Assembly: GCA_002049455.2 (NCBI GenBank)
Contig: KV919014.1
Span: forward strand, 52,512-116,511
Length of the DNA: 64,000 nucleotides
Origin: Porphyra umbilicalis
Lineage: Eukaryota > Rhodophyta > Bangiophyceae > Bangiales > Bangiaceae
Reading direction: 5' to 3'
Position numbers and translations under genes: made by a program. This document shows, piece after piece, positions 5,041 through 55,340 of the stretch. The notes below the pieces were generated by a model. It had not been told where the DNA came from. It saw only the letters and a program-made list of their open reading frames with translations, and did not search any database. Within the stretch, counting starts at the first letter, position 1. The number at the start of each line of letters is the position of its first letter.

Positions 5041-5329
5041 TATACATTTAGTTTGACTCTACCAATGAGAACGCAGAACACATTGGGGCCGGCACCGGAC
5101 CAGCCTCATTTCGCTTCACCAATGGGGCAGGTCCACACTGTGTGTTGGAATGAAGTTCCAGAAACTTTCTCGTGAAAGATATTCCAACATAAATATGGCA
5201 GTATCTTCTGAATTGGACGGAGGACAGCCCTCCAGAAAATCCCGAAACAAGACTGGCACATGATTTGGACGATTTTCTGTATGGGCGCGGCCAGAAAATT
5301 CTAGGAACTGGCCTTGTAATTATCCTTGC

Positions 5330-6020
5330 CGACCTCCAGCATCAACCCTGTAGTCTTTTCCCGGGATGGTCTCGGGAACTGGTCAGGAACAGTTCCCAGG
5401 ATTGTTCCTAAGATTGTCTCGCAGCATATCCAACAGTACGTTCGAAGGAAGATTCTTCGAAACACATGCAGAAACTGATGTCAACGAGCACAGCAAGCTA
5501 GGAACAGGATGTTGCTGCAAACTCCTCCCTGAAAAATGTGCGGCAAGGAACGAGCTTCCTGGCCCAATCCTTGCCTTGAAACAGAAGGAGACACCATGCC
5601 CGAAGAAGGGCGCGCGCGCGTTCAAAGGATAGTCGTGCGAGGAGTTCGTCGCTGTTCGTGTGGAACGTACCACAGCGAGACGGATGCTTGTCCTTATTCA
5701 ATCCTAGCCGCAAAATCGAGAAATCCACGGGATATGACTGAGGATCGGTATTTAATAGAGCCACATCGATTCTCGAGGTTGGTTCGACGCGTTTCTAAGA
5801 TCGTACTGTATTCATCCACAGATTGGCTCAGGACCGTCTGTCAGTTATTCCGAAGGATCGTCCTGAGGCGATCCCAAACCCGATGTGGGGCGAGACATGG
5901 AGTTAATCAGCACTTTCTCCTGCGAGCTCTTCCAGTGCTCCCGTCTAGTCTATCCTCAAGATCATCGTGCGGATCATCTGCGGAATCTTCAGGAACAGTC
6001 CCCCAGATAGTCGTCAGGAT
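5330..6020. repeat. Subterminal repeat region, left end of member 1
   Basis: This is lower-GC, non-coding DNA packed with variants of GGATCGTCCTGAGG and CAGGAACAGTCCC in both orientations (for example near 5,390, 5,865, 5,960, 5,990 and 6,015). The same vocabulary recurs at 19.74-19.95 kb and 53.6-55.3 kb, next to the other element ends. In CACTA-type elements such clusters bind the transposase; that role here is inference. Confidence 0.5.
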
Positions 6021-6560
6021 CAAACTGAGAACCAGGCAACGGACTAGCCCATGGCAGGAGCAGTTGCACAAGTGGACACGTCGCTTTGTCGCCCAAGTGC
6101 GGTTGATCTTGGAGGGTCTTGCAACCGGGAACGACGCAAAACGTACAGATCTGACTACCGGAACGTCGCTCGTCTCTGGCGCACGCGCCGGAGTTTCGGG
6201 AGAGCCTCGGCGTGGTGCATTGCCTCTGCACCGCCCTCCTCCAACGTTTCTCCTGCAACCTTGTCCTTGTACGCTGCTGTTATCGTACTGCCCCCGCTCC
6301 GTGCATATGCCCAGCTCGTGGTGTCACCTCTCCTCGCGTCGCACTGTGTACCGTCTCTATATGAGGATCTCTTTGTTCTGCTTTCCCTCTATGGTTGCGT
6401 TCTTGAGTTTGACCGTCTTATGCTTGACTATCCGTGTACACAAAAGGCCTCTTCCTGGACTGACGTCAAGTGTGTGTCACTACCACTAAACTTGGGTGAC
6501 TGCCCGTGCTCTTACAGAACGTCTTATTCCGCAGTGTACGACCACGGCACAAAAGAAGAC

Positions 6561-9548
6561 ATGAAGCGTCGCCGGCGCGGCCCGCGAGGTGCTGCCTTCT
6601 TTCATCTCAATGATGGGAACCTATTGCACATGGAAGAGCAGCAAGCGTCATCAGGCACGGCTGCCCGTACTGGCGGCTTGGAGGATCCTGACAGCAGCGT
6701 CGCAAACAAAACCCCAGATGATTCAGGCACCAGGAAGGCACTAGCGCATTCTGTGGGAGACTATGAGGACGTTGCTCTATCCTCCGACTCTGGGCGTGAC
6801 GGGTGTCCCTCAGATGACTCGGAATTCTCCTTCGAGGGGGACCGCGATCGTGGGGGCTTTGTATCACGTCGCGAGTTCGTGTGCTTCGGTTACCTGTACG
6901 GCAGAGCGCGCGTCACGCTGAGGCAGTACGACATTATGCGAGAGGCAGAAAACTCCTTTGATCCGACAGAAAAATGGCCGTCGCGGTGACGCTTGCGAAA
7001 ACTGCGCGAGCACATGTTGAAGTCTGCAATACCCCTACGACGGGAGACGACAACACGCCAGCTACCTGTTGGTAAAGGGAATGCCATGCGTAAACTGCCG
7101 AACGTGGAAGTGTCGTACATCACGTTTTCTGAGCACATGAAGAGGGACTTTGCGGATCCTGTAACAGCAGCACTGTTCCACAACAAAGGGGACTCTCGAA
7201 TGGGCACTGTCGAGCGACCGGCCGAGTTCTTTCAAACAGTGGCGGCCAGGGACCCCGCCAGGTTTAATGTGAACAGGGTCTTCTTCCGTGACGAACACAG
7301 CTTTGACATTGGATGCACCGCTAAGATCTCTTTTGATGAAGCGACCGTGTTCGAGGCCCGCTTGTTAAGCACCTCCATGGCGCCTGACGGATGCGTAACC
7401 ATATCGGCGTCCACGTATGCTCCTGAACGCACATTGCGGGTAGGTGACTCACTTGCGCTGTTTGAGGCGCTCCCCGGGTTTATGCCGCCAGAGCGCTCGG
7501 CGTCCTGTCTCTCGGATGAGCGCCGTGTTACGCTACGCTTCACGCGGTCCGGTGGCGTGTTTGTTATCGCCGTACGGGAGTCCACCGTGCATGAAAAGAA
7601 TTCATGGTCAGCTTTGACTGCCACCAGCCCCTTAGAGCTGTCACATGTGCCTCAGCCCTGCGAAGACAACGTTTCCGAGAAGGACCCATATGTGCTGTAC
7701 GTGTCGCTGTACGGCGACCAGTCCAATGTGCATAAGCGTCGCCGCGGAAGCCTGGAGGGCTACTACGGGGGTTACACATCGCTGTGCTTGCAGGATCGTG
7801 CGTATTCTGTCCGTCCTCTCTTTTACCTCCCCCCAGGAGCAAGCCCGGATGCCCTGCTCAAAAAAATCGTCGACGACTTGATAATAGCAGGTAAGGAGGG
7901 CTTGGCTGTCTATGACGCCTTCAAAAAGGAGAGTGTTGTTATTCGGGTGTACCTGTGCTTCGGTGTATTTGATTTCCCCATGGCCGCCAAGTTCTCCAAC
8001 TCAATAGGCGCCCCAGGCACAGAGCACTGCACAAGCTGCGACATTGTGCAAACAAAAACACACACAGAAAGGAAGGAGAGAGCGATGAGCAGCACGGTAT
8101 CTTTCAACGTGAAGGACTCACGGTACTCAAGAACGCAAGAGCAAACTTCCCTCATCATGTCTGTCATAAAGAACAAACCGGGACTATCGACAGACGCAGT
8201 GAAGGACGCACTCCTCTTGAATGGCATTACGGACAAGACAGGCAGTCTAATGATGCGCCTGGCCGAGGCCCGGGGACCTGGGACGTTTGACATACACGAG
8301 CACGTCATAGTTGCTCCTTCACATCTACTATACTACAACATCGGCTCACATCTCCTGATGGAAGCGTACGAGGCGCTCTCAGTTGAGCTGCGAGACAAGT
8401 TCATGGGGGAAATGCGCCGAAGTGCGAAGCGTGTTCCGACACACACGATCCTGTCCTCATTCGAGCCAGAAAAAATGGGTGCCACAACTCTGTCAATGTC
8501 AGATTATGCAGTGGTGATCACAGTAGGTCCCACTGTCATACAGTACCTTGTGCACAGGACGGCCACGTCACCTCACGCACGTGCTGCTCTCAGAGGTCTC
8601 AAGGCCCTGCGACGGTTTTCCACGGCACTGTTCTATGTGCCAACACTCTTTTCGGACGGGGAGAAGGCCATGAGAGAGCGGCCGACCGTCGCTGAGCTCC
8701 AAGTTATGGGCGAGAGCCTCATTATTGAGCTGCGTAGACTATTACCCTTTAACGGAAGTTGGGAGAGACCGTCCGTACATCATGTACTGGAACTGTTATA
8801 TCGCACCCTCCCACTTGCGCAGCTGGGGTCAGCGATATGTGAGCTCATTTTCGAGAAGCTCCACCAACATTCGAAGCGGGAGGTGAGCCAGAGTAACAGT
8901 CGGAACCCCGCTGAGTACTCCATGCAAAGGGGGAGAGACACAGAGCAGTCCTCACGGGTTCTTTCCATGCCCGGCGCACATGGGATTCCTGCTTCGTGGG
9001 TTCTTGGTCAAGAAGGCCAGCCACTGAAGTTTGTCTCTTTTCATAGCCTCGGTCCTCACAAACGACAATCACTGTCCACCAACATGCGCTGGCGTCCACG
9101 AACAGCCGCGCGCACGGTTCTGGGATCCACGGAGGAGTTCTGGCGAAGTCGTGCGCCCAACGCAACTCTGGCATTCTGGCGTCAAGCCACGCAAGCGCAT
9201 CGACCGTCTGTCCTCCGACAAGGGTCCACAGTGTCTCTGCATGAGAACGGAGCCACCCCCGAACACGAGTCCGGCTCCGATCTGTTGGATAGCAGAGAAT
9301 TGCGCTTTGTCCGTGTGCAGTCCATTGGAACAATCGATGGCGAGCTCCATGTCGCCTGTGAGACCTGGAAGATACCAGCCATGGCATTCAGCGTCTTTGG
9401 ACAGCCCGCTGAAGTCACAATCGACACTGAAGCTGGATTGTCTTTGATACCAGCTGACCATGTGAGACAACTTGCCTTCGTTCTGCCCTGCGGGCAGCAC
9501 AACGTGATGTTCACCAAGAGATCTGGCTTCCACTTCAAGAGTGGATGA
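6561..9548 (+). CDS. TNP2-like DDE transposase, member 1 (one in-frame TGA)
   Basis: This is the putative transposase of the element (995 residues counting the TGA). The start at 6,561 is chosen because the diverged copy at 53,199 begins with the same MKRRRRGPRG. It resembles the Transposase_21/TNP2 fold. VSLYGDQ near residue 385 is the likely first Asp. GVFDFPMAAK near 470 is the second, followed by a CxxC (CTSCD). LSMSDYAVVITVGP matches the helical insert, and HVLELLYR...CELIFEKLH near 764 supplies the Glu. A TGA at 6987-6989 replaces a Trp that the other copy keeps (SRWRL). Both copies are exactly 996 codons long despite heavy divergence, which indicates past purifying selection. The gene converges on the polyprotein gene with only 241 bp between stop codons. 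The family assignment is by motif order and needs a profile search. Confidence 0.72.
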
Positions 9549-9789
9549 CTGGGGGCGTTTTTGCCAATGCGGCTGCGCTAGGATGGGGCTGAGTGAAAGA
9601 GCATATTGTGTTCTCTGGATGTATCACCTCACCGAGCAAAACGAGCAATATTGTCAAGGCAGTATCACACGAAAAGGTAGATGAAAAAAGCACACAAACC
9701 TCCACGCCCCACCGGGAACGTCGGAAGTAAGAGCTCAGGACCCGGAGACTATCAAACAAAAGAAAATCAGTGGTAACAAGAAACATGTC

Positions 9790-12700
9790 TTACTCAAGAG
9801 GCACCCTTCCGCCCCCCCCCCCGAGCACCTTCAGCTTGTCCACCAACAGGTACACGCTGCTGTTGGACAGCCTCTGCACCAGCACAGGAGCATGGCATCC
9901 GGCCAGGTCCTTAGAAGTCGGAAGACCCTGGCGGAGCCGATCGTGCTCTGCATCGAACATGACAGGTGCACACCGCCAGCAGCACAGTGGCGCGTCAGGA
10001 ACCGCATCATCACCGAGCTGCTCAATGCACGCCGGGCAGACAACGGCAGAAATCCATGTGACCACACCACAGTGAGGGTATGAAGCGCCGTCAACAGAGT
10101 AGTATGTAGCAGTTCCCTCCATCTCGTTCGGGAGCACTAAGGGCTCACCCTCCCGCTGGATCGCATTTTCGACGATACACCGCTGAACAGCTCGTGATGT
10201 GCTTCCAAGGGCCACAGCAGTGGGCTTTTTGCCTCCCCAGCCTGGCTGAGAGTCCACTTCCATGAAGGTAACAACACTGTTGAGGTACTCTTCTAAGTAC
10301 GACACCATCACGGCGACATCTCGTCGGAACTCTGCTGGCTCCCACGCTTCATAGTTCTTTGCATCGCCGCACCACCACTCCCCGTCGGCTAGCTTCCGAG
10401 CGGCAAGCACCAGCGACTTTTCTAAAGGGATGTGGATTGTGAGCTTCGTACGCCAGTGTGCGGCATGTTCTATCGCATAGGAGAGCCAACCCGTGCATGC
10501 CAGGTTCACCGCAGAGGCTATGCTTGGTCCCCCGTTGAAACTACTGTGCAGTACGCCGTACCCCGTTACAACAAAGTCCCCAGTCTCCATCGTGTGGAAC
10601 CCCACGCGAACGCCATGCGCTAGAAACAGAGTCGCAGGCCAAAGGCACGCTTTCACGGCGAGTACCTCCCATACATCCCCTCCAGCCGCTGCCAGTACAG
10701 CGGGGTCCATGTGTTCTCGCATGACGCGCTCGGTTCGCGGACGTTCGGGGGCAGGAATAAGAAACCAAAACTTATTTGAGCCCTTCTGCAAGTACGATGA
10801 GGACTGCAGCAGACTGTTTTCCACGTGCCAGCTGAAGTGGGACCCTCTGGTCCCAGCGTAAAGCAGGTTGTTGTTGATCCCTTCGTACGTAGACGCGGCA
10901 CCGAGCATGGTGTGGTGGTTTAGAGTGCGTGGATTCTCAAAGCGCTCACAAGGAGGAACAGGAGCCGCTATGGCGGTACAGGAAGGGTCGCCAAGGCTCC
11001 TGCTGCACCCATCCTCGTTTCGAGGTGACATATCTGAAAGATAGTACACATCGATTGGTCTTGGCCCACCGCCCACCACCATCTTCTCGTTCCGAGCAGC
11101 GGTCACCTGTTGCACCCATGTGACGCTCGGATCATTCACACTGCTGAGGAAGCGTTTCACACCAAAGTCTTTGTACTTGGCTCGAAGGGAAGCTGCGCTC
11201 TCGCTGACCTTTCGGTTGAGTTCCGTAGCAGACAACCGCTTTTCCCGTTCTGACGTCAGCTGAGCCCTCAACTCTTTGCGTTTCACACTAGAGTCGGCCG
11301 CAGGCCTGCCAAAGAATGCGTCACTCACGATGGTCGGGTAATGTGGGAAGGTCCGGACGCGCGCCCTGAGCTTATCCCCGGTATGTCGCTTGGGCATGCG
11401 ACTGGACGGAGGACGCCTCTCGGGGGTTACTACTCGGAAAACGTGAGCACCAAATGTCCGAATCGACGCAATCTTTGATCGAATCAGACCGTGCATTCCG
11501 AATTCAGGAACCGATGTCAATTCGGTAACAGGTGCTGAGAGGAACTGCATGACATGTCGTGACGAGGACCCAACCGCCTGTGCAGATGCCTGCCCTTCGT
11601 CGTGATGTGCTGCTGCCGGGCCACGCGCCTCATTGGCATGTGAGCCGCGGTTTGAGGGGGCATGTACTTCTCTGGCAGCATCAACATCGTGCTTGATAGC
11701 ACCTTCTCGGCGCTCGGCCGTGGTTTCACGGCGGCGGCTGACCTCTGGGGCACCTTTGACGTGGTCTGGGCAGTGTTTTTTCGTCGTAGCGTTGTCGGAC
11801 ACAGGCCCGAGCTGCATTGCCCTCTCGATATACGGTACGTACGACGACCCGGAGCTTCCAGGTTTTCCTATGAAGCATGTAGAGGAGAGGGCCTCTGAAA
11901 TAAACCCGAGGTCCTCCGCGTCCAAGCTGGATAACGGATCGTCATGGCGCGAGGCAGAGACTCCACTAAACAGAGACAAATCACCCCCAAGTTGACCACC
12001 TCCCACATCACAACCGCTACCGCCATCATCGTCCCGATAGTCCGCAGCTGCAGCGTCGGTGGCCACATGTCGCGCGTCTCCAGCAGCTCCGTCATGATGG
12101 CGTCGATCGCGAGGGCGAGCGACAACGTGTCGATCGCCGTGCGCGGCGGCGTCGACGCGGGTGTCGACGGCGCCGCCACCTACGCCAGCACGGGCGGCGG
12201 CGTCTTGTTCTTGATGCACATGAACATCATCAACAGCAACTCCACCATCACGGCGTCGGTCGTGCGTGCGTGTTGCGAGGTCTCCATCGCCGTCGACGGC
12301 GGTGTCAGCACGGGCTCCTACATCGCGGCCTTCTACTCCAACACGGGTGTCGGCATCGTGACGTCGCTTCACATGATAGCCATCAACGACAACTCCACCA
12401 GCACTGCGTCGGTCCTGCGCACGTGCACCAACTCGTCCATCGCCGTCCACGGCCGCAACATCTCGTTTGCCGTCGCCGGCGCTGCTGGCAGCGTCCACAC
12501 GGGTGCCTGCAGGAACATGTGACTCATCAACAACGGATCCACGATCACGGCGTAGGCCGTGGGCGCGTGCGGCGACTTGGACATCGCTGTGCACGACGGC
12601 GTCGACACGGGCGCCGTCAACACGGCCGTCTCCTCCATCACGGCCATCGGCATCACGACCTGCACGCACATGTAACACATCATCAACAGCTCCACGATCA

Positions 12701-15378
12701 CGGCGTCGGCCGTGGGCGCGTGCGGCGACTTGGACATCGCCGTGCACGACGGCGTCGACACGGGCGCCGTCAACGCGGCCGTCTCCTCCATCACGGCCAT
12801 CGGCATCACGACCTGCACGCACATGTAACACATCATCAACAGCTCCACGATCACGGCGTTGGCGGTGGGCGCGTGCGGCGACTTGGACATCGCCGTGCAC
12901 GGCGGCGTCTACACGGGCGCCGCCAATGCGGCCGTCTCCTCCATCACGGCCATCGGCATCACGACCTGCACGCTCATGTAACTCATCAACAACAGCTCCA
13001 CGATCACGGCGTCGGCCGTGGGCGCGTCTGGAAACTTGTCGAGCTCGGCTCTCAACCTCATCTTCTTTGTCACGGGCACGGCCGTCGGTTCTGTCTGCGT
13101 CTTCACTCCCTCGAGCGCCACGATCCCCCGCTCGACCGGGAATGGAGCCGCCACCGCCGCCGCCATCGCTGCCGCCGCCGCCATCGCCGCCGGCATCGCG
13201 CGCGCTGCCACCTTTGCCAGCGTCTTCGTCGTCTGTTACGTCCTTCATGCAGTCCCCGCCGTCAGAGGCCTCGTCTTCGGACAGGTCGCACCCGTTCAAA
13301 AGATCCGCGGCTGGTTCTTGCTCATGCCAGACCTTGCCACCAGGGCGGTGCGGTTCAACAATGCGGCGGATTAGGCCACGCAGGCGCCGAAGAGAATGGG
13401 CCTTGCGCCATTGCGGGCCATCGTCGGCGCGCAAAAGGCACGCTGCTGCTGCGGGCTCAGCAGAGTGGAGAAGAGAAAAGTACGCCAGCAGGTTGTCGGC
13501 CGTGTCCGCCATCTCTCCGGCCGGGGTCCCCACACGGCGCACCGGCAATCGAGTCCTCAAGCATCCATTCACACGCATTCGCATGCCAATGCAGTCCTTG
13601 CTGCGCAGGCGGGTCTGGCGAATGGCTGCGGTCAAGGAGCAGAAGAGGCCGTTCAACACCTCAAAGTCAACCTCCGCGCCTCAATTCCCCGCGTATGTGT
13701 TGATGAGCACCACGGCGGCCCCGTGAACGGGCTCGGCTTCGCCGTCGAGCACGGCCTGAACAACCGACGGCACAACCTTGTCTAAGCCTCGAATAACCAC
13801 CCCCGACCAACCCCGTCCACTGTAAACCGGCATGACGACCGTACCGCCGCTGAACACGAGGCGGTTGAGCAAGACGCTGGCAGCCCTGTTCACGATCAAG
13901 ACGTCGTCCGTCGAGGCGTCCTTAACGTCCTCGCTGTCCAGTGCAGAGGGCACTCGCAGGCCACCGATAACACCGCTGCTTCTCGCCCAGTACAGGAACC
14001 ACAATAGGAGGCCGTCCATCATGTGCTTGGACATTTCCATGCCCTCTTCCAAGGACGCCAAGTCCGTTGCCGACAGTTGTAGGTGCCGCTCGTCGCGGAC
14101 CGGGAAAAGAAATCGTGGTGGCCCTGGGAGACTCGATGCGGAGGGCACCGGACAAACGGGCACAGAGCGTGTCCTCGAGGGTGCGCCTGCGCTAGAGGCG
14201 CGTGGCAGCACTTGAGGCCCATGCGGCGGCGGGGGTGCAAAGGTCGTGACAGTGGCCGTCGACGGGGGGTCGCCATCGCGACTGGCCTTTAGACGAAAGC
14301 GCTTAGGAGGAGGTGGGGCTTGGCGTAAGAGTGGCCGTATACGTGCGCTCAGGTCGGCCACAGCCTTGGCACGCGGCGCGATCGGCGTGTTGGAGGGACG
14401 CGGGGCCGGCACAGGAGCAGCAGGCGTCGCGAAAGGGTGGACAGAGGGCGGGGCACGGTGGGCCACGGCAGAGCATTGGCCCTCGCATCCGTGGGACGCC
14501 AAGGCTTGCTGGACGAGGAAGCCTGCTGCCGCAGTGTCGCCACAACTCGGCACACCGTCGACGTCTTCGTGTAAGATCCTTACAGCTGAAGCCAATAGCG
14601 AATCAATCGCTTCGACGTCGCCACAGCCGCCACGGCACTGGCTCAAAACTTGCAGCGGGCTGGGGCTGGGCAAGTACCCCGGCCCGGCGAGTTCCAGGGC
14701 CGACAAAAGCATCCGCATCTGCGTAGCTGTCAGCCCGCCTACACGACCAGCCAATACACGCCGCGCATCGTTGATGACCGCGATCATGTCGGGCGCAGAA
14801 TGGGACCCGTGGACGACATGCACCGCCCCACGTGCCATAGCATGTGTGCGCTGGGTCACCCGCCTGCCATGGCCATACGCTTTAGTCTGTTGCGTCGCCC
14901 CCGGCCGACCACGTACACTCATCCACCGCGCGAGCTGGAGACCCCTGACAGATATGGAGGCACTGCCTGTCACCGGGCCGAGCGGCGATCCGCTGCCATT
15001 GCCATGGTCTGGCACGTGGGAGGGCTCAACACGGCGAATCGGCTGGCCCTCGCCACCGCCTCGTCCTGTCCCGCTGCCACGGCCACGACGACGGCCACGG
15101 CCGCCACCGCGTCTGCTTCCAAGTATGCTGCCGTCCGGAATCGCGGGGGCCGAGTGGGCGTATCGATCGGCTTCTCGAGCCAGCGCCACCGCCCCTCGTT
15201 CAAAAGCATCCACGGCATCGACGGCCCGCGCGGCTTCTTCAACCACGCGGGCCGCTTCCGCAGTCATAGCGTCCGCCCGCCGACGGGCGCGTGCCACCTG
15301 ACGACGATGGTTGCGAGATAACTCGCCCGGCAACGGCCCGAGAGACTCTGATGCATCACCCCCCTCCATAGCCTGCAC
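9790..15378 (-). CDS. Polyprotein with C-terminal JmjN-JmjC-C5HC2-like module, member 1 (one in-frame TGA)
   Basis: The reading frame is 1,862 codons plus stop, with one TGA at 13681-13683; both sides are in the same frame. The order is as follows. First is a basic/acidic N-terminus with a Cys-containing block (CRGGCG...HGCEGQC). Next comes a Ulp1-like pattern at about 430-637 without obvious catalytic His or Cys. A 51-residue repeat array follows at about 780-1113. A JmjN-like segment lies at about 1287-1327, JmjC at about 1490-1627, and a C5HC2-like zinc module at about 1767-1810 (PHC, VVCPAC, LCCWRC). The JmjC part keeps HVE (H1518, E1520), K1536 in SNKFWF, and H1611 in GVLHSSFNGG, the Fe(II)/2-oxoglutarate set of KDM4/KDM5 demethylases. 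Histone demethylation is therefore plausible; the substrate is unknown. The start is the first Met near the homologous N-terminus of copy 2. Confidence 0.8.
12040..13040 (-). repeat. Coding 153-bp (51-aa) tandem repeats within polyprotein 1
   Basis: The landmark ctccacgatcacggcg recurs at 12088, 12241, 12394, 12538, 12691, 12844 and 12997. That is a 153-bp period with one unit 9 bp short. As 153 is a multiple of three, the coding frame is kept; it encodes Asp/Gly/Arg-rich 51-residue units (DGRDGGDGR, VDDVLHVRAG). Antisense frames also stay open for the same reason and are not genes. The array separates the N-terminal part from the JmjN-JmjC part. Confidence 0.85.
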
Positions 15379-15529
15379 CCACTCACGAGATGACGAGCCA
15401 AGAAGCGCAGTAGAATCAGAGTGGCGGTCAATAAAAAAGTCGGTGGTTGGTCGAGGGTAATGGGCAGAGCCCCCTACGCCACCGCAGCACGATCAGCTCT
15501 TTCGGGCGATCGGCGGCGGACTGCCTCGT

Positions 15530-16710: not shown

Positions 16711-17069
16711 ATCGTGCCCCCAAAAACAAAGCCAAGGGGAAGTAGGAAAGAGGGGAACAGGGTGTGCAATAGTAGAATGAGATCAACAGAGGGGGGACAG
16801 TATTACCAAGCGAGTAGGGGATCGGTACATGCGTCGCTGGGGTACTAGACGTACTGAGTTACGGTACAGTGATGGCACGAGCTCTACGACGGTGATACGT
16901 GGTCGAGACCGCACGTGCTGCTCTCCGAGCGTAGCGGAGGACAGTACCAGGCTCGGCCGCGTGCTCTCGGCGTGCCACGGCCAGGCACGGCCGCCACAGC
17001 CGCGCGTGCGGCTGAGAGGCTGTGCGCTCCCCCCCCCACGCCGGATACGTCGGACACCCACGTCTGGCA

Positions 17070-17275
17070 GGCTGCGCGACGGGCGCGGAACACCATGTGA
17101 GATCACCCGTCGGCCCCGGCTGGGTGGACCGGATAGTGAGCAATCTCGAGAAACGATGGACACTGTTGCCTGGCGGCGGCGTGGAGGGCGCGGCGCACCA
17201 TGTGAGATCGCATGTCGGTGGCAGACGGGTGGACCGGATACTGAGCAATCTCGGGAAACGATGCAAAATATTTAC
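17070..17275. repeat. Two direct copies of a ~105-bp unit
   Basis: caccatgtgagatc occurs at 17091 and 17196, each followed by gtggaccggata and gagcaatctcg. This is a two-copy direct duplication in the promoter region between the divergent genes. Confidence 0.75.
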
Positions 17276-40741: not shown

Positions 40742-40837
40742 CACGTGGCGCTGTTGCAACACGTGGCGCAGTTGCAACACGTGGCGCTGTTGCAACACGT
40801 GGTGCCGTTGCAACACGTGGTGTCGGTGCAACACGTG
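40742..40837. repeat. Six CACGTG boxes in an 18-bp tandem repeat
   Basis: CACGTG occurs at 40742, 40760, 40778, 40796, 40814 and 40832 within units of the form ttgcaacacgtggcgctg. It lies 130 bp after Copia pol, in the 3' region. CACGTG is the E-box/G-box core bound by bHLH and bZIP factors in many eukaryotes; regulatory use here is inference. Confidence 0.9.
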
Positions 40838-42879: not shown

Positions 42880-44970
42880 GAGGGGGTGCGGATGGGTGTG
42901 GTTCTGGTGGACGGCGGCGCGGAGGTGGGGACGCGGCCATTAAAAGCTGCGGCGGCGGGAGCGAGGCGGTAGCCGGCGGTCGGGGACTGCTGCGGCAAAA
43001 GCGGCAGCCGCTGGCTGCGGGACGAGGCCAGGAGAAGGTGTGGCGGTCGGTGCGGGAGGCTGCGGGGGCGGCCACCGCGGAGGCGGCGGTCAGTGGCGTT
43101 GGCAGCGGCGGCGGCGACAGCGAGAAGGGGGGCGGGAGCGGGGTCGGCCGTCAGCGGGGGCGGCGACTGCGGGGGAGGCGGCGGCGGGGGCGGCGGACGG
43201 CGACGAAGAGGCAGGGCGCGACGGTGGGCGGCGGCAGCGGCGGAAGCGTCGGCCGGCAACAGCGGCGGGGGTGGCGAAAGCAGGGGCGGCCAACGATGCC
43301 GGTGCAAAGAGCGGCATGGGCGGCGCGGGCGCCGACGGTCGGCGGCAGCTTGGGCGGCCGTCGTCAGCGGCGCGGAAGGTCGCGCTGCAAGAGGCGGCGG
43401 AGAGGGCGAACGCGGTGGCCGTGGACGGCCGTGTCGTCGGCGGCGGCGGCGACGGTGGGGGCCGTGGTGGGCGGCGTTTTCATTGGTGGCGGCCAGGGCA
43501 GGTGCGGCGGTCGACTGTGGCGTCCGAAGCAGTTGGGGCCAGGAGGGAAGCGGCGCCGGGCGGTGGCGAGGGTGGCGGTCGTTTGCGGTGCAAACGGGGC
43601 CGGGGACGGCGGCGGCAGGATCAGCGATGGGGGCGGCGGCGGCGGCGGCGGCGGCGGCACCGGCGCGGGCAGGAGCAGTGGCGGGGGCGGCGGCTGGGGC
43701 TGGAGCCGGGGCCGGCGGCGGCGGCGGCGGCGGCGGGACAGGAGCCGGCGGCCGGTGGCGGCTGACGGGACGGCGTCGGTCCTTGTCGGTTGGGGCGGTC
43801 TCGGAAGTGGCGAAGAAGGCGGCGGCGGGCGCCGACTGGCGAGGCGTGGGCGAAGGCAAGACGGAACGAATGTCGGCGGGGGAGATGCTGGCGGTCCGTG
43901 GAAGCGATGACGCCCGTCGGCGCCGGCGTGAGGGCCGACGACGTCTCGGGCGGCGAACGGCGGCGGCGGGGTCGGCGTGCGGCGACGGTGGGGACGTGGG
44001 CGTGGGTGAGGGAGGTCGCAGGCAAGGGCCGTGACGGGGGAGGCAACGGGGGGCGCAGCGGTAGGCTTCGGCGACGACAGGGGCGGGGGTTCGGGCCGGG
44101 AAGGAGGGGGCGGCAGCGGGGACGGGGACGGCGAGGGCGCGGGGGGCGGCAGTCGGCAGCGGCGGAATGGGCGGTTGACGACGGCGGGGACGCGGGCCCG
44201 CGTGGGGCGGTGGTCGATGACGGCGAGGGGGCAGCGATCGGCGGCTGTAGCGGCGGAGGTTGTCGTCGTCGGCGGCGGTGACGACGGCGAGGGAGGCGGT
44301 GGGCAAAGGCGGCGGTCGGCGGGGGTAGCGGCTGGGCCGGCGACGGCTGGGGCGCGGGGGGCGGCAGATGGAGGCGTATGGGGGGGCGGACGATGACAGC
44401 CAGGATGCGTGCGCGGGCCGAGGCGGCGTTCAGCGACGGCGGGGGGTTCGGCTGTCGGCAGCGAGGGCGGCGGTCGGCGGTGGAGGTGGGGGCGGATGAC
44501 GACGATCGGGACGGGCGTGCGGGCGGTGGCGGCGATCTCTGCGGGCGGGGAGGGCGGCCGTCGGCAGCAGGGGGGCGGTCGGCAGAGGCGTTGAGGGAAG
44601 ATAGAGACAGCGGGGACGGGTCTGGGGGCCGTGGCGGAGATCGGCGGTGCCGGCGATCGGCGGGGGCGGTGGCGGCGGACGGGGCAGACGGCGACGGCGG
44701 GGACGGGGGTGCGGGCGGTAACGGCGATGCCGATGCCGGCGGTGCCGGCAGTCGGTGGGGCTGGAGGGGTCGGTGGGGGCGGCGGTCGGCAGGGGCGGCA
44801 TCGGTCGGCGGCGGGGACCTGGGTGAGGGCGGTACCTGCGGCGACGCCTGTGGCCGCCGTCGGCGGCGGCGCCTGGGGGGGCGGGGCAGAGAGGGTGCGT
44901 CGGTGGAGCGGCGATGGGGGAGGGGATGCGGGGGATGCCTGGGGTACCCTGGGGCAGTGTCTACAGTGAG
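42880..44970. repeat. GGC-rich low-complexity tract
   Basis: Nearly pure G/C (G-rich on this strand) with few T or A, so all six frames are long and open and the Gly/Arg or Pro/Arg reading frames are artefacts. It resembles the C-rich tract at 1-2,030 in the opposite strand sense. It has many G-runs that could form quadruplexes. Confidence 0.8.
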
Positions 44971-45373
44971 GGTGTAGGCTCAATTCATCAGGTGGCGGCA
45001 GGCGCGGCCGCTTGGCGACTGGGAGCGGGGCCGTGCCCCGGCCCCGCCTCGTGTGCCCCCTCAATCGCTCAGATCCACATGTTTCGTCAGTGTCGGTGTG
45101 ACAGCGCCGCGCGTCCGACGGGTCCTAAAGGGCGTTCGGCCACGTGCCAACGCAGGAGGGATACGTGACGCACTCCAACGATTGGAACCCTGAGGCCGAG
45201 CTGAATCGCGGCCGTCCAGTTCCGAGAGGTACCATATTCCATCCGTGGGTGGCTGTCGAAACAAAAATATGATAAATTGGGCAATCTGAGGACAATATGA
45301 ACTGCCACATGTCACTCATTTAACCCCGTGAAACCGCGATGGACCAATCAGAGCACAGAACCCGTTCGCCCCA

Positions 45374-45420
45374 GGGCCAACGAGTTGCCAACGGAGGCTC
45401 CGTTGGCAACTCGTTGGCCC
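45374..45420. repeat. Near-perfect 47-bp palindrome of TTGGCCAACG-type words
   Basis: gggccaacgagttgccaacg continues into its own reverse complement around a centre at 45,397. It is one of several ccaacg/cgttgg words inside the TA-flanked element. Confidence 0.85.
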
Positions 45421-45619
45421 CGGGGCCAACGGCTCCGACCCCGAATCGGACACAAGTACATTCGCGTTTTAACTCGCTTGACCTCCGTTGGCAACGCCGC
45501 GTGCACGTTCGACATTGTTACCCGCCCCGAGAACTGGCCAACGGCGAATTTGAGACACGTTTCTGCAACGTGTGCCCAATATGGCGTTGGCCCGACATTG
45601 GTGGGAATGCTCTAAAGGG

Positions 45620-45990
45620 CTTTAGCCCCGCCGTGAGAACGGTCATTGTGGGGGTGGTGCCCGATGGACCGGATGGGGTCCTACGGGCACAAGGGAGGCC
45701 CGGAGATGCCTCCGGCATCCTCGCGGGCCTGTTTTGGCCCCATCGGAGGTCGGTTGAAAAACCGACCTCTGGACATGGGGCTCCAGGGCTTTAGACCCCC
45801 GGCCAGAATGGTCACTGTGGGGGTGGTGCCCGATGGACCGGATGGGGTCCTACGGGCATCAGGGAGGCCCGGAGGTGCCTCTGGCATCCTCGCGGGTCTG
45901 CTTTGGCCCCATCGGAGGTCAGTTGAAAAACCGACCTCTGGACATGGGGCTAAAGGGCTTTAGACCCCTCTGCATGAAAGGGGTCTAAAG
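45620..45990. repeat. 168-bp tandem repeat in the Copia 3' region
   Basis: ccgatggaccggatggggtc starts at 45661 and 45829. A diverged third copy lies at about 40,857-40,975, on the other side of the 4.6-kb insertion, in the same orientation. Units contain the palindromic word ctaaagggctttag. Confidence 0.85.
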
Positions 45991-46081
45991 GGCTTTAGAC
46001 CCCTCGGTCAGATCGTCCCCGGAGAGCCTTGCATGGACTTTCGATGACGGGAATTTGACCGGGTGGGAGGAATTACCCTGG

Positions 46082-46095
46082 GGTACTGGGGGGAG
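46082..46095 (+). promoter_or_regulatory. Likely polypurine tract of Copia
   Basis: ggtactggggggag lies directly before the 3' LTR, the usual place for second-strand priming. It is G-rich but broken by two pyrimidines. Confidence 0.5.
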
Positions 46096-46462
46096 TGTGA
46101 AGTGTACTTCCGCAGTCCCCCAGGGACAATTGGCCCTTGCGTAAGTCGTAAGTCTTTGTATTTGTGTGGTGACACTGCATGTACTTGATTGTAGATCTTT
46201 CAGCGGGGAACCCATTAGGGGTTGAGCTCCGGGGGAGATTTGTGTGGGGAGCGGCGCCTGGAGTGTGAGGCTGTGGGCGCCCTCCGGAGGTGCGGGAGCT
46301 GCCCTGGGAGGTGCCGTGCGGGCCTTGTCGGCCGCGCCATTGGGGGTGCCTGGGAAGGCCCTGCGGCTGAGGCGGCCTGGGGGATATCAGGCACGGCTTC
46401 GCAGGCCTGGGAACGCAGTGCCTAGTAAAATAACGCACCCACTCAACATCATCGACTTCACA
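46096..46462 (+). repeat. Copia 3' LTR
   Basis: 367 bp, same ends and length as the 5' LTR, one mismatch. Followed by gccgt, the unmutated target duplication. Confidence 0.95.
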
Positions 46463-49400
46463 GCCGTCGTGGTCACGGTCCAGTTCAAGGCGGCTGTCGC
46501 GGTCGCGCCGACGGGCGAGTTGGCGGAGACGATCAAGTTGCCGCTTGTGCTGTTCGTGGTGATGATGGCGGACGGGGTGTTGCACGTCAAGGTGCGGGCG
46601 GCGATTGCCTTCAGTCTGGTGGTCGAGTTGATAGCCACGTTGATGAGGCAGGTGCTGCCGGTGGTGGTGGCGACGGTGGCCGTCGTGGTCGTGGCCCAGG
46701 TAAAGGCCGCGGTCGCGGTCGCGCTGACGGGCAAGTTGGTGGCGACAATGGAGTCGTAGGTGGTGCGGGTCGTGGCGCTTATGATGGACGAGATGGTCAA
46801 GGTACCGCTCGAGGCGGCGGGCGCTGTGGGTCTGATGATCAAGTTGGTGGTCACGATGCAGTGGCAGGTGGTGCCGGCCGTATTGGCGACGGCGGCCGTC
46901 ATGCTGACGGTCCAGGTCAAGGCGGCGGTCGCGGTTGGGCTGACAGGCGCGTTGGCGGAGACGATCAAGTCGCCATTCGTGCTGGTCTTGGTGATGATGG
47001 CGGACGGAGTGTTGCACGTCAAGGTGCGGGCAGCAATTGCCGTCAGTCTGGTGGTCGCGTTGGTAGCCACGTTGATGTGGCAGGTGGCGCCGGTGGTGGT
47101 GGCGACGGTGGCCGTCGTTGTCACGGTTCAGCGCAAGGCAGCGGTCGCGGATGCGCTGATGGTCTAGTTGGCAGAGACGATGGGGTCGCAGATGGTGCCG
47201 GTCGTGGCGCTAACGGTGGACGAGATCGTCAAGGTGCCTGTCGAGGCGGCGGACGCCGTCGCCATGATGGTCGAGTTGGTGGTCACGATGCAGTGGCAGG
47301 TAGTGTCTGCCGTAACGGCGACGGTGGACGAGGTGAACACATTCAAGAACAAGGTGGCAGACGCCGTCAGCCTGGTAGTCGAGTGGGGTATCATAACGAT
47401 GTTGATGACGATGAGGTACCTGGTGGTGCAGCAGGACGTGATCGTGATGATCAATGCCAAGGCGGAGGTCTCCGTCGGCCCTACGAACGAGGCGGCGGTG
47501 ACAATGAGGCCGCAGGTGAAGCTGGCCGTGGAGGTGATGGTGCACAAGGTAGTCAAGGTCATGGAAAAGGCGGCGGTCACGGTCGCCCCGATGATCGAGG
47601 TGGCCGTGACGACGACGTTGCACGTGGTGCTCATCGTGGCGCTGATGCTGGAAGGGGTGGTCAAGGTCAACGTCAAGGCGGCGCACACCGTCGGCCTGTT
47701 GGTGAAGGTGGCGATGTCGACGAGGTCGCTGACGACGGGGTCGCACGTGATGCTCGTCGTGGTGCTGATGCTGGACGGGATGGTCAAGGTCAACGTCAAG
47801 GCGACGCACGCTGTCGGCCTGTTGGTGAAGGTGGCGGCCTGAGGGGTGGGCGGGTGGCGCACGGTGGTGCTGAAGGCAGTGGTGAAGGGTGTCTGCATGC
47901 ACTGGCGCGGCTGCAGCACGATGAGTCGGTGGTGGAGCCGCAGACTGCCGAGCACGGTGGCACGAAGTTCCACTCAATTCCTGTCACCTGCATAACCACC
48001 CTTCCGGACCTCGGACTGCTTGGCTTGATTCGATCGCAGACAGCGTCCATCCGTACATTTGGCGCACACGTGTTTCGAATAGTAGCACCCCATATTCGAC
48101 CTGTGTCATGCGCGGCGCCAAAGCGGAAAGTTGGCGTGAAAGTCCGGGTGCGGAGTCAAACTTTCCCGCAGTACCCAACCATTGTCAGTGCGTCCTTCGG
48201 TGGTAGCACGCAGGCGCATCCTGGTGTGAATCGCGAAGGGCTACGAGATCAAATGCCGCCAGAAAGGGAGATGATGCTATCGAGTGCTGAGGTCAAGAAG
48301 AGGATGCGCGAGAGCAAAACCGCTCTTCGCGCCCGATACAAGGACTTTGGTGTTCCTCAGTTCCTTCAGAACGTCAATGATCCGAGGGTCACCTGGATGC
48401 GAGGTGTGACTGCAGGTGGGCGCGAGACCAGAGCCCTTGGTCCTGGAAAGCCCAAGCCAATAGAGGTGTGCTACGTCTCCGACATGACTCCAGCCAACGA
48501 AGATGGGTGAGGCAGGAGCCTGGGCGATCGAGCCTGTACAGCCAAACCGGAGCCCTTTCCGCCGAATGAGCGATTGCAGAACCCTCGTACTCTGAACCAC
48601 CACAGCATGCTTGGTGCCTGTGCCACATACGAAGGCATCAACACTAGCTTTCTCTATATGGGAAGCGTTGGGTCTAACTTTAGTTGGCATGTAGAGGACC
48701 ATCTGCTGCAGTCGACTTCCTACCTGCAGTCCGGGGCGAACAAGTTCTGGTTATGTGTTGCGAGGTCTGAGGTTCCAAAAATGGTACGCGTCATAAGTGA
48801 ACACATGGACCCTGTCGTTCTGGCAGCTACAGGAGGTGACGTGTGGACGTTTCTAGCGGAGAAGGCAGTCTTGTGGCCTGCGTCGTTTTTCCTTGCCCAC
48901 GGCGTTCGCGTCGGCTTCCACAAAATGGAAGTTGGCGACTTCGTCGTGACGGGCTACGGCGTTCCGCACAGCGGATTCAACGCGGGAACGAACGTAGCGT
49001 CTGCAGTGAACCTTGCGTGCACTGGCTGGCTTGCGCATGCTATTGAACATGAGGCCCGCTGGCGTGGAAAGATAGGGATTCTTATTCCATTCGAGAAGCT
49101 GCTCGTACTGAGCGCCCTGAAACTGGCTGCTGGAAAGTGGTGGTTTGGCGATGCGAAAGCCTATAAGGCGTGCGACCCAGCAGAGTTTCGACGGGACCTC
49201 CGAGTCATGACCTCCTTCTTGACCGAGTATCTAGACTGCATCCTTGCATACATGAGAACCGATTTGCATCCAGCCTGGAAGGGAGAAAACGCAGTCGTCG
49301 TGGACTTACAAGCGGCACCCCACGCTGTGAAGTAGTTTGTTACCGATAACGCGATCAAACCAGCCGGTCACGGGTTGGTGCTCCCCAACGAGAAGGATGG

Positions 49401-49713
49401 AGTCGTCACAGACTACTCTGTGGACGGTGCGGCGTGCCCTCATTGCGGAACTGTCGTCTGGATGTCCTTGGTCGTGTGCCCGGCATGCATTGACCAGCTA
49501 GGCGACGGAGCTGGACCGAGTGCGCCGATCTGCTGCTGGCGGTGCGCGCCGACCAAGTACGACGATCCGCACTACCGGCCCGAGCAGGCCAGCGGGAAGG
49601 AGCCGCACCTCGTTGGATGTCACGCTCCTTTGGTGGTGCAGCGGCTATCCAATGGCCGCGTGTACTCGCTAGTGGAGGAGCTGAAGACGATAGGGGACAT
49701 GGGTAGTGACTAA

Positions 49714-50211: not shown

Positions 50212-53199
50212 TCAGCCGCTCTGAAAGTGGAAGCCCGACTTCTTTGTGAACAGTACCTTGTCCGCGCCGCAAGGGAGAACAAAAGCAGACTGCAGTACGC
50301 GCTCAGCTTGCACAAGTTCCACGCCGGACGTAGCGTCGAGTTGGACTACCGTAGGCTTCCCAACGATGCATAGGGCTGACGCAGGGGCTGTCCACCATTC
50401 ACATTCAAGGTACAGCTCTTCCGCAATTGTGCCAATCGCTCGGACGCGACCGAATTGTACTCTCTGCCCTCCTGTCGTGCTGGGGTCGTTCAATACGTCA
50501 CATGCATCTTCTTCTTGGAGCACAGACACTGTCGACCCCTCTCGAATGAAAAATGATCGCTGCGGGTGCCTGGCTTTCCTCCAGAACTTGACGGTCGCGT
50601 TGGGTGTGTGACCCCGCCAGAAATCTTCTGTCGAACCCAAAACCATGCTCAAGGCTTCCCTGCCGCACCACCTTTCGCCAGTGGCGGATGCCAACCGCCT
50701 CTGCGGAGCGAGCCTGTGAAAAGAGACGGCCTTCAATGGATTACCGCCGAGGCCAAGCAGCCACGATTTCGGAATGCCGTACTCATCAGGCATGGACAGT
50801 GCCCTTGAGTACTGCTCTGTGTCTGTCCACCTTTGCATTGAATATTCCGCAGGGTTCCGATGGTTGCTCTGGCCGATCTCGCGCCTCACCATCTGATGGA
50901 AGTTCTCGAAGATGAGCTCGCATATTGATGAGCCGAGCTGCACCAACGGTAGAGTACGATACAGCAACTCCAAAAGCCGATGAACGGCAGGCCGCTCCCA
51001 CTTTCCGCTGAACGGTAGCAGGCGGCGCAACTCAATCATCAGACTCTCGCCGAGACGTTGGAGCTCAACGACTGTTGGCCGTTCCCTCACGGCATGCTCT
51101 CCGTCAGAGCGCAGAGTCGGCCTATAAAACAGAGCAGTAGCGAAATGTCGTAGGGCCTTCAGAGCGGCAACAGTAGCAACCGCATGAGCAGAAGTACTTG
51201 AGGTGTGCACACTGTACTCCAGGACCGTGGGACCCACGGTAAGCAGCACTGCGTAGTCGGACATAGAAAGAGTCGTGCCACCCATTTTTTCAGGCTCCAA
51301 GGATGATAGGATCGTGTTTGTTGGAACATGTTTCGAACTGCGGCGCATTTCTGAAATGAATTTGTCACGCTGCCCGACAGAGAGTGCCTCGTACGCTTCC
51401 ATCAGGAGGTTGGATGCAATGTTGTAGTACAAAAAGTGAGATGGTGCAACAATGACATGTTCGTGTATGTCAAACGTCCCAGGACTTCGGGCCTCAGTCA
51501 GTCGCATCATCAGGCTACCTGACTTGTCCGTAACTCCATTTAGCAGGAGTTCGTCTTTCATAGCTTCTGCAGACAACTGCGTAGATCTCTTCAGGGAAGA
51601 CATGATGGCAGCTGTTCGCTCTTGCACTCTGGAGTACCTTGTGTCTTTGACATCAAAGGAAACTGTGCTGCTCATCGCGCGATCCCTCCTCTCGCTCTTA
51701 GTCTTCGGATGGACAATGTCGCAGCTGGTGCAGTGCTCAGTTCCTGGAGCTCCTATAGAGTTGGAGAACTTGGCCGCCATAGGAAAATCAAACACGCCCA
51801 GGCACAAGAAAACCCGAACCACGAAGTTTTCCTTTGAGTGCGCGTCATACACGGCAACACCTTCCTTGCTCATTTGGAGCATGTCCTCGACGACACGCTT
51901 CAAGAGAGCTTCAGGGTTTGCCCCAGGTGGTAAGTAAAAGAGTGGCCGAACGGAGAACGCACGATCATGCAAGCTCAGAGACGTGTACGCTCAGTAGTAG
52001 CCCTCTAAGCTCCCACGGCGTCGCTTGTACACGCTAAACTCATCCGCGTACAATGAAACGTACAGAGTGTGTGGGTCTTTTTCTGGCAGCTCGTCTTCGT
52101 TTTGCTCTGCAACTTGTGTCAGCTCAATCGGCTTTTCTGCCGTCAACAGCGTCCAAGAATCCTTTTCACTCTCGGTAGAGCTGCGCACCGCATTGATAAA
52201 CACACCGCCTGACCTTGTGAATCGTAGCGTGCACCGGCGAGCATCTTTAAAGCACAAAGCCCACGGATCAGGAGGCTCAATCCCATGCATGACATCAAAC
52301 AGCCCTAGTAAGTCCCCAACTCTGAGGGCGCTTGGTGGAGCATACGACGCCTCTGAGATCGAGACGTCTCCATCGGATGCAATCGCTGTGCTTTCCAATC
52401 GGGCCAGGAGCGTTGTGCTGCCATCCAAAAAGACAGAGACAATACACCCAATGCCGTACGTGTATTCGTCTCGGAAAAATCCGTTCTTGAAATTAAACCG
52501 AGACGGGTCCCTCGCAGCTACTGTTTGAAAAAACTCTGTTTGGCGCTCAACGGTCCCTGCGCGCGCATCCCCTTCGCTGTGGAACAGAGCTGCTGTGAAT
52601 GGGTCCTCAAAGTCCCTCTTGATGTGCACGGAAAAGGGAATGTAAGACACAGTAACGTCCGGCAGTTTGCGAAGAGCCTTCCCTTTGCCAACGGGTAACT
52701 GCCGCGTGGTCACTTCCCGTCTCAGAGGTATAGCGGTGTTCAGCATTTGCTTGCGCAACTGTTGTAAGCGCCATCTAGATGGCCACTTCTCTTTGGGGCT
52801 GAATGAGTTCTCTGCCTCTCGCATAATGTCGTACTGCCGCAGCGTGACACGCGCTCGACCAAAGAGGTACCCAAAGCAGAGAAACTCCCGGCGAGACGCA
52901 AATTGCCCGACTGGTCGTTCCACTTCACTGGAGATGTCTGTATCGTCAGAGGGGCATCCATCAGGCTCAGATTCTGAAGACGTGACTACATCTTGGTGGT
53001 CCTCTAGAGCGGGTGCTGGTGACGGCCTTCCTGACAGCAGGCCCAGGTTTAGCGTCACACCGCTATTTCCAGACTCCTCCATAGGCACTGCTCTCGAACC
53101 TGTCGTTGAGGTGGCCTGCTGCGACTGCATATGCATGAGGTCTCCATCGGCAAGATCGAAGTAGGCGGAGCCTCGAGGCCCCCGCCTGCGACGCTTCAT
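50212..53199 (-). CDS. TNP2-like DDE transposase, member 2 (one in-frame TGA)
   Basis: 995 residues counting a TGA at 51991-51993, where member 1 has Gly (EGYYGGYTS). It is homologous to 6561-9548 along its whole length and of exactly equal length. Candidate catalytic residues are kept: SLYADEF (Asp), GVFDFPMAAK (Asp) followed by CTSCD, and CELIFENFH (Glu). A Trp is present (SRWRL) where member 1 carries its TGA. The N-terminus has a basic MKRRRRGPRG, perhaps a nuclear localisation signal, followed by an acidic Ser/Asp stretch. It converges on polyprotein gene 2. Confidence 0.72.
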
Positions 53200-55340
53200 T
53201 GCCGGTTGGGGGCCAGAAACAGGGCAGCAAGCTGAGCTTCGAATTCACTCAATAGGGAGCTATGACGAAGCGGGGAGACGCAAGCAGACTCGATTCGGAT
53301 AAGACCAGTCCAGGAACGATTCGAATCGCGCTTCTGTACCCAGTACGAGCAGCCCTTGACAGAAGACGTCCCCGCGCACATCATCTGAGGTGTGGAATGG
53401 CAAGAGCGTAAAACCGCCCTGCCGCGTGTGCTCGATGCACACGAGGTTCTGATTCGTTAAACTCTCCTGAATCCAGAAGCTGGCAGCATGCTTGAGCTCG
53501 CGAACCGTCCAGGCAGCGTCCTACATGGCCGTGTGACGAACAATCCCAGAACTGGGACGAGTGTCGCCCTCAGAAACGACCGACGGAAGATCTCACAGAT
53601 CATCCCAATGGTACTCTGCTGTTACGTTCTTCGTGATCCCACGGACTATCCACGGAGCACTCCGCTTCTGATCCCAGGACATTGCGTAAGATCATCCCGA
53701 AGAAAATTACTGAAGTCTCCCTGAGAGAGTTCCAAGTAATTTCCGGAAGAAACAACGTGCGCCAATCTCACGACGATCCTGGCATCACATCCGGAGCATC
53801 TGTGGAAGAATTCGAGGGACTCCCTCCTACCGATCCTTCAATCGATGTGCGATAATTCGAAGGATCGTTCAAAGCTGTGTGCAGGATTGATTTGGATGCA
53901 ACAAACAGACAGACCTCGGGAAACCTCTGCGGACCATCTGAATCAAGCACCAGGATTAAATAAGGAAGAGGTCGCAAATCGCTGTGCAGCGCCCGCCCCA
54001 TTTCTGCGCTTCGGAGTTGATTCGTACTTCCAGGATTCCATCATGACCATTGAAGACCAGAATGGGGTCGATCGCGTTGACAGAAAAGCCTACACAGCGT
54101 TTTGTCCCCGATTCCTTAAAACTGGGAACTGCGAGATTCGAACACGCCCACCGATGGTTCGCAGAACAGTCGCACAGCGATCATGCGATCAAATGATGCC
54201 CACTTTTTGTTGATCTCTGAGACAGAGCCCGCAGTGGAGTTCAGCAGTGCTCGAATACCATCTGCACCGATATTCAGTGGGAATTATCCTCACACCAGCA
54301 CCTGCAGATTTGGCAATTGTCCGGCGAAGTTGCTGCCCCATGCTCATGAAGGATCATTCCGATTCGCTGGTTCTAATCGTGCTGCGTATCGTGCTGAGAA
54401 CTGTCCTGAAGTGGGAGTAAGATCATCCTGAGGATCGTGCTCAGGACTATCCTGGCGTCGGAGTACAATCATCCTGGGGATCGTCGTCATAGATTGAGTG
54501 AACGAGTGCGCAAGATTGATCTAGAATCCTGCCTCAAGGACTCGATCGTAGATGATAGCCTAAACTACTTCGAGTGACGTCGTGAGGAGGGTCTGCCGAA
54601 ACCGATCAGAGAGCAAGACCTGCCCATGGGGCGTCGCTCCTGGGCCACAAAGCGTGTGCAGAGTGAACCTCAATGTTACTTGGTAGTCGTGCGACCGACA
54701 CGCTGTTTCCCGGCGCAGAGGGGATGGGAACTGGGTAAACATGCGTCGGCTCGCACATCGAGAATACCGTGAAGTCCCGGACGCACCCAGTCCCGATTTA
54801 TCAATGATTGGGTCTCCTTCACGCGCAGTAAATTCGTTCTCAGCTCAGTGGCAATCTCGTCCCCTTTCGTCCTAACACAGCACGTCCCGAACTCGCAGTC
54901 CCCCGGTTCAATACGGTTCAGAAGCACTCGCACCAGTTTCTCAAGCGCATGAGTGATGTGTCAGATGGCAAGTTGGGCATTGCTCTGAACGAAGAAAATG
55001 TCCACAGGATTGTGTTCACACTGTTGACGAAATAGGCAGGCATTTTGTTTGCGGAAGAGGCAGTCAGACTATCAGTTGAACAAGTCCTCACATTTTGGTC
55101 GAATGACAGTCCCCGAGATGATCTGTGGGTCAGGATGACACTGCTTCTGGAACGATCCCCGAGTCAGTCCCGAAGATGATCCGTTGAACGAGTCCAGAAC
55201 TGTAGTGATGAACTGCCGAATCACAGAGGTCACTCGAGAATCAGGCAATCTGAAATGTTGGATTTTCGCTGATCCACGGAACTTTTGTGCACATGATCCT
55301 CCGAATCATGCTGAGGCCATCTCACAGGAGCTTTGCATGG
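53200..55340. repeat. 5' flank and subterminal repeats at the transposase end of member 2
   Basis: Non-coding, with many GATCNTCCTGA- and CAGTCCC-type words (dense at 54,410-54,490 and 55,095-55,200), the same vocabulary as the left flank of member 1. Short reading frames here have no support. The true end of the element was not located. Confidence 0.5.

Follow-up and report, generated by a model that had tools for sequence, protein, structure and literature searches.

What is a gene with a JmjC oxygenase domain doing beside a transposase, twice, in one stretch of a red algal genome? The stretch is a 64,000-nucleotide window on contig KV919014.1 of Porphyra umbilicalis (C254:52512-116511 in our numbering; "the window" hereafter). 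A preliminary description made from its sequence had recognised two strongly diverged members of a TNP2-type DNA transposon family, each with a transposase gene, a JmjC gene convergent to it and a small two-exon third gene. We compared these members, A and B, with each other and with the genome (83.8 Mb in 665 contigs). Our preferred reading, to which we assign a probability of roughly two in three, is that A and B belong to one cut-and-paste transposon family of the CACTA-Mirage-Chapaev (CMC) clade, in which the JmjC protein would relieve silencing of the element and the third protein would bind DNA.

Boundaries and gene content of the family

The termini of the family are 5'-CACAG...CAGTG-3'. 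On the transposase side, flanks are unrelated between copies and common sequence starts at CAC, with CCTTATTTAATCCT about 20 bases inward (28 copies in five groups). This 5' terminus was recognised in 26 of 30 copies, with CAC in all 26 and CACAG in 23, and was not recognised in L011, L013, L020 and L035; the start of the common sequence puts the 5' ends of A and B at 5671 and 53986. Towards the JmjC side, A copies remain homologous far past the JmjC gene, as far as 20048. Ten of ten A-type 3' ends examined close with CCACGCAGTG and diverge beyond it, and CAGTG forms the 3' ends examined, including that of B at 5136. All eight copies with both ends (window A, window B, C117, C17, C294, C301, C27 and C20) are flanked by 2-bp target duplications, a count that leaves out C2, C92, C80a, C80b, C22, C74 and C401, each with one end not recognised or not covered. 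In A and B, the JmjC gene and the third gene lie between the CACAG and CAGTG ends and the duplications flank the whole unit, which bears out the proposal that the JmjC gene is part of a self-contained element. The extent first given, 5160 to 55340, had to be corrected to the ends of B listed in Table 1; 55340 is ruled out as the right end, since it belongs to another element (54093-55433).

The element ends were searched for a long terminal inverted repeat without success; such terminal repeats as exist are short and imperfect. As a subterminal motif, GGANNNTCC proved weak. The pattern GGAYNRTC occurs at 2.0-8.1 per kb in the ends versus 0.6-0.9 inside, but the pattern was picked post hoc and in two of the four ends its density stays at or below the maximum of the shuffles, and its enrichment is only a lead. 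At C80:140042-173253 (L010, L011 and L061), two A-type copies stand in tandem with TA at both the outer 5' and the outer 3' end; the second copy's 5' end was not found, and the first copy's 3' end is absent from the 3'-end comparisons. The arrangement looks as if a single insertion had turned into a dimer via recombination.

The strong divergence between the two members was confirmed at the DNA level (70% identity for the transposase, 67% for JmjC), and so was the equal length of their transposase frames, exactly 996 codons with one in-frame TGA each. Both frames begin MKRRRRGPRG. Of the domains expected in these proteins, two scored over their Pfam cut-offs in both window copies: Transposase_21 at 29.4 and 33.7 bits (curated cut-off 28.6), and JmjC (PF02373) at 50.4 and 61.6 bits (cut-off 24; 3.6e-13 and 1.2e-16), the latter encoded convergently to the transposase as described. 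The rest of that expectation failed, with no Pfam match to DUF4218 in the window transposases or to JmjN or zf-C5HC2 in the window JmjC regions. A C(2)C motif is present in the transposase: Cys 347 and Cys 350 are invariant in the copies covering them (at least 25 of 31), and the CxxC follows a DFP motif. Several D, E and H residues are also invariant in the alignment and are candidates for the H(3-4)H motif and the DDE catalytic triad. At a site where other TNP2 proteins of this genome carry YDVMH or similar, the family has a shorter SH.

The small two-exon gene had been reported without coordinates, and we took it to be the conserved gene at 17.9-19.0 kb in A and 20.6-21.7 kb in B. Its conserved intron was found in both copies, with a GTACGT donor, an AG acceptor and phase 0 (all read by eye), and the exon 2 products of A and B are 66-68% identical. 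Placement of this gene at 5160-5670 and 54.0-55.3 kb, outside the transposase-side terminus, was rejected.

We searched the genome with the A transposase and obtained 57 matches in 53 loci; the best 53 of 292 first-look candidates were scored, and the counts are a lower bound. The co-occurrence of the three genes, predicted from the window, was recovered elsewhere: a convergent JmjC gene (opposite strand, at most 8 kb downstream) is present at 51 of the 53 loci and the third gene (transposase strand, at most 30 kb downstream) at 42. JmjC is missing at C95 and at C503, whose contig ends 0.9 kb past the transposase match, and 4 of the 11 loci without a third gene (C138, C428, C486 and C503) are too near a contig end to show one. 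By an arithmetic estimate, random placement would yield some 0.3 pairs of transposase and JmjC, and a third gene as neighbour about once; with 51 of 53 loci keeping JmjC, chance pairing is therefore excluded. Some copy counts may nevertheless be inflated, because C16 and C391 (L049-L052), more than 99% identical through element and flank, are probably two haplotypes of a single locus, and a few copies may have been counted twice. L018 and L019, which have a common flank, are likewise probably two haplotypes of a single locus. Against double counting as a source of the association stand dozens of contigs that have the identical layout with distinct flanks and their own target duplications, and we give next to no credence to an assembly artefact or a chance neighbourhood.

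The reverse search, in which all 112 candidates were scored, returned 105 JmjC domain matches in the genome. A TNP2 match stands convergent to 67 of them at a distance of at most 8 kb; for another 21, the third gene is found on the side where it is expected, no more than 30 kb away. Because 88 of 105 matches adjoin one partner or the other, a tally of "host histone demethylases" in genomes of this kind may consist largely of transposon genes. The 17 matches with neither partner include the three strongest (C263, C30 and C344), which have the appearance of normal host genes, and they argue for a JmjC gene that is a mere passenger, picked up from the host and without function in the element. This we consider very improbable: apart from the 51 of 53 loci, and from purifying selection on JmjC that equals the transposase's in strength (see below), the JmjC and third genes are also paired in lineages whose third proteins are 37-50% identical (for example C228, C288, C284, C212 and C70). 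Since such lineages retain the pair, the association is old.

Stop-free stretches make up 18 of 31 for the transposase and 25 of 30 for JmjC; A was scored open in the former count though it carries a TGA, because the transposase query begins just past that codon. All three genes are open in the matched stretches of C16, C27 (393534), C20, C87 and C62, and autonomous-looking copies of the family occur elsewhere in the genome.

Selection and shared history

We estimated ratios of nonsynonymous to synonymous divergence (dN/dS) pairwise by the Nei-Gojobori method, using the last 417 codons for JmjC; for many pairs, synonymous divergence (dS) has reached saturation or has no defined value. All three genes are under purifying selection. 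Between subfamilies, dN/dS is 0.07-0.17 for the transposase and 0.09-0.20 for JmjC, ranges that omit three pairs whose two representatives turned out to belong to a single subfamily (dS at most 0.03; dN/dS 0.46-0.83). The unsaturated JmjC pairs give 0.17 (dS 0.33), 0.20 (window A and C27, dS 0.35), 0.16 (dS 0.74) and 0.15 (dS 0.80). For the third gene, 10 of the 13 pairs computed lie at 0.07-0.14 and one is undefined; at dS 0.62-0.91, the ratio is 0.11-0.14. Distances for the transposase and JmjC across 29 copies are almost perfectly correlated (Mantel r 0.991, 0 of 2000 permutations), and the two genes have therefore travelled together. The chromatin-modifying function assigned to the element in the preliminary description is still a prediction, although JmjC is under purifying selection and its catalytic residues, described next, are conserved.

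Predicted roles of the JmjC and third proteins

The JmjC gene is far longer than its window copies would indicate: in the sister copy C16, it is a single open frame of 2,570 codons, comprising an N-terminal part of about 700 residues, repeats of about 1,200 residues, and a C-terminal JmjC domain with a cysteine-rich tail. Besides JmjC, no Pfam domain scored over cut-off in the parts of the gene tested, and the tail gave only sub-threshold zinc-ribbon matches. By sequence, its closest relatives of solved structure are Arabidopsis JMJ13 (6.4e-16) and KDM4D (2e-15). All 28 covered copies keep the metal-binding HxE; the second histidine is present in 28 of 29 copies and the lysine that binds 2-oxoglutarate in all 29. 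A Pfam scan of ten window segments gave no TET/JBP dioxygenase, and the oxygenase matches JmjC; the predicted target is therefore a histone lysine rather than 5-methylcytosine. Phages with JmjC were scanned and no relative was found, nor was one among viral contigs scanned for the third gene and JmjC.

These features lead us to propose the following sequence of events. Judging from what is known of the family, the TNP2 transposase would cut at CACAG/CAGTG and paste with a 2-bp stagger. The JmjC oxygenase, judging from its residues and relatives, would strip repressive histone-lysine methylation from the chromatin of the element, upon which, following precedent for silencing relief, the element's genes could be transcribed and its ends become accessible. 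CACTA elements usually have two genes, and TnpA is the accessory protein. By this usual make-up, its position and a conserved arginine-rich stretch, to which an acidic C-terminus is added, the third protein might be a DNA-binding accessory factor and counterpart of TnpA, although this is a guess. An extension of this scheme, which we regard as possible but short of probable, is that the third protein is dedicated to recruiting the JmjC histone demethylase to subterminal repeats, the two forming a self-protective anti-silencing module that is ancient and has diversified into many subfamilies.

It could also be that the JmjC protein oxygenates another substrate, such as the transposase, the third protein or another host protein, and not histones. 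JmjC oxygenases are diverse. KDM4- and KDM5-type demethylases usually contain JmjN and zf-C5HC2 domains, which were not detected here, and the N-terminal flanks tested match no family. The closest solved relatives, however, are demethylases of the JMJ13/KDM4/KDM5 type, and HxE...H and the lysine are kept; we judge a non-histone substrate unlikely.

Several observations weigh against desilencing by JmjC aided by a DNA-binding third protein. The missing JmjN and zf-C5HC2 matches are among them, as is L023, the one copy of 29 in which the second metal-binding histidine is replaced by aspartate. For the third protein, neither a fold nor a DNA-binding domain was recognised: Pfam gave two sub-threshold matches only and the PDB none that is credible, a match to a viral non-structural protein (2e-4) having been dropped as chance once the family profile weakened it to 0.28. 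The copies of the element in the window are both damaged. Comparisons inside subfamilies often give a dN/dS of 0.5-0.9, and above 1 in a few low-count pairs, a sign that many copies degenerate once they have inserted; for two close pairs of third genes, the ratio is 0.66 and 0.68. Finally, third-gene distances (L074, L077, L078 and window 18197-18952) disagree with those of the transposase and JmjC. Window A and C27 differ by a dS of 0.37 in the transposase, 0.35 in JmjC and 0.90 in the third gene, and window A and C157 by 1.63, 1.45 and 0.82. Because of this departure, the three genes cannot always have been inherited in one block, and the pattern suggests that a 3' module with the third gene was exchanged between subfamilies.

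With EnSpm/CACTA elements, the family shares Transposase_21, 5'-CAC...GTG-3' termini, the CxxC after DFP and an extra gene of unrecognised fold (the possible TnpA counterpart). It differs in its 2-bp rather than 3-bp target duplication, its short and imperfect terminal repeats, and its JmjC and different third gene. According to passages of Kojima 2025 (PMC12730594), EnSpm elements have 5'-CAC..GTG-3' ends and duplications of 3 bp, and the wider CMCT clade has CA..TG ends and duplications of 2-5 bp; the CA...TG termini and 2-bp duplications of the family lie within this CMC/CMCT definition. Because the 3-bp duplication is lacking, we file it as a CMC-clade, TNP2-bearing, CACTA-like family and not as canonical EnSpm. 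Giant EnSpm elements of up to 15.2 kb have been reported for the brown alga Ectocarpus, and the main text of that paper does not mention JmjC (PMC12477816). In a literature search by titles and abstract openings, with subscription papers and Repbase outside its scope, no CACTA element with JmjC was found.

The family's JmjC protein has HxE...H and the lysine in common with KDM4/JMJ13-type demethylases and differs from them in having no JmjN or zf-C5HC2 match, a long repeat-rich N-terminal part and a place on a transposon. The anti-silencing protein of VANDAL elements is named VANC and is not known to be an oxygenase. Among mobile elements, the nearest precedent comes from fungi, in which DNA transposons of numerous superfamilies, EnSpm and Plavaka among them, carry TET/JBP dioxygenases and thereby probably evade methylation-based silencing, as put forward in passages of Kojima 2025 (PMC12730594). 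There too, an EnSpm-like DNA transposon can carry a 2-oxoglutarate/iron dioxygenase thought to be anti-silencing, but the enzyme is TET/JBP rather than JmjC and the EnSpm duplications are 3 bp rather than 2 bp. The same passages cite Phytophthora HarbingerS and MuDR elements with a SET methyltransferase, likewise a histone-lysine-modifying gene on a DNA transposon, although of other superfamilies and with SET writing the mark that JmjC would erase. They also list VANDAL MuDR elements with an anti-silencing protein (PMC12730594), an element-encoded relief of silencing in another superfamily. To the transposons on record there with DNA-demethylating oxygenases or a histone methyltransferase, the family adds one with a JmjC gene of the eraser type. 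If true, the module would be the analogue, against histone-based silencing, of TET/JBP capture against DNA methylation. In the subfamilies examined, selection on JmjC matches that on the transposase in strength, and the removal of histone silencing marks by a selfish element thereby becomes testable.

Nesting and neighbouring repeats in the window

All nine B-type copies examined run without a break through the place occupied by A (GGAACGTACCCAGACC; two of them differ slightly). We therefore conclude that A inserted in B with the 2-bp duplication AC, and an arrangement of A and B as side-by-side elements is ruled out. Without the nested A and a Copia retrotransposon, and assuming a 5-bp Copia duplication, B measures 14,971 bp. 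The features are listed in Table 1.

Table 1. Features of elements A and B in the window (window positions; a dot marks features without strand).
Feature	Position	Strand	Details
Element A	5671-20048	+	14,378 bp; 5'-CACAGCGAGA...CCACGCAGTG-3'; target duplication AC; ends common to sister copies
A transposase	6561-9548	+	Transposase_21/TNP2; 996-codon frame; TGA at 6987-6989 (codon 143)
A JmjC gene	9790-15378	-	C-terminal frame 9790-13680 (JmjC domain 10504-10863); N-terminal frame 13681-15378, out of register
A tandem repeats	15460-16600	.	164-bp units; interval from JmjC to third gene
A third gene	17925-18952	+	Exon 1 17925-18020, intron 18021-18196, exon 2 18197-18952; 283 amino acids; exon 1 and splice sites by eye
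Element B	5136-53986	-	5' terminus 53986 (CACAGCGATTTG on -); 3' terminus 5136 (CACTGTGTG on +); target duplication TG/CA
B third gene	20570-21650	-	Exon 1 21650-21540, intron 21539-21335, exon 2 21334-20570; 291 amino acids; exon 1 and splice sites by eye
B tandem repeats	22614-23713	.	200-bp units; interval from third gene to JmjC
B JmjC gene, N-terminal part (inferred)	23870-26968		Severed by Copia insertion
Copia long terminal repeat (LTR) retrotransposon	26969-46463	+	Inside B JmjC gene; 19.5 kb; LTRs of 368 bp with 99.7% identity; foreign to the element
B JmjC gene, C-terminal part	46464-49713	+	JmjC domain 48649-49011; in-frame stops
B transposase	50212-53199	-	996-codon frame; single TGA at codon 403

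The insertion of A in B bears on one further explanation of the JmjC gene, namely that it serves chromatin targeting or rivalry between elements, through the choice of open sites or action on other elements, rather than desilencing of its own element. A second case of such proximity, the C503 copy, lies directly outside a B-type 5' end (by eye), and the JmjC gene is present in every subfamily group examined. Repeated nesting, however, is common with any abundant element, and we think this explanation improbable.

The damage to the window JmjC genes takes different forms, that of A being split over two frames at about 13680 and that of B interrupted by the Copia insert, which encodes gag and reverse transcriptase. 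The insert also carries an open reading frame for a DDE_3 transposase (29079-30179) and a 2.3-kb inverted repeat (30342-32636 / 32843-35137).

The separate non-autonomous element at 54093-55433 is 1,341 bp long, with CACAG...CAGTG ends and a 2-bp TA duplication. All or most of its length recurs at 93-99% identity in at least 39 further places in the genome, among the 40 best of 1710 first-look candidates that were scored, and it may be mobilised by the transposase of the JmjC family or a related one. At the other side of B, 24 other genome places match 4200-5135 from the first base and stop exactly at the B 3' end, which places the insertion of B in or beside another repeat. An open frame with a PIF1-like helicase domain (9e-25) occupies 62361-64000, runs past the window edge and is possibly a piece of another mobile element. 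The left end of the window (1-2000) is a CCG-rich tandem repeat with a 19-bp period and 87% G+C.

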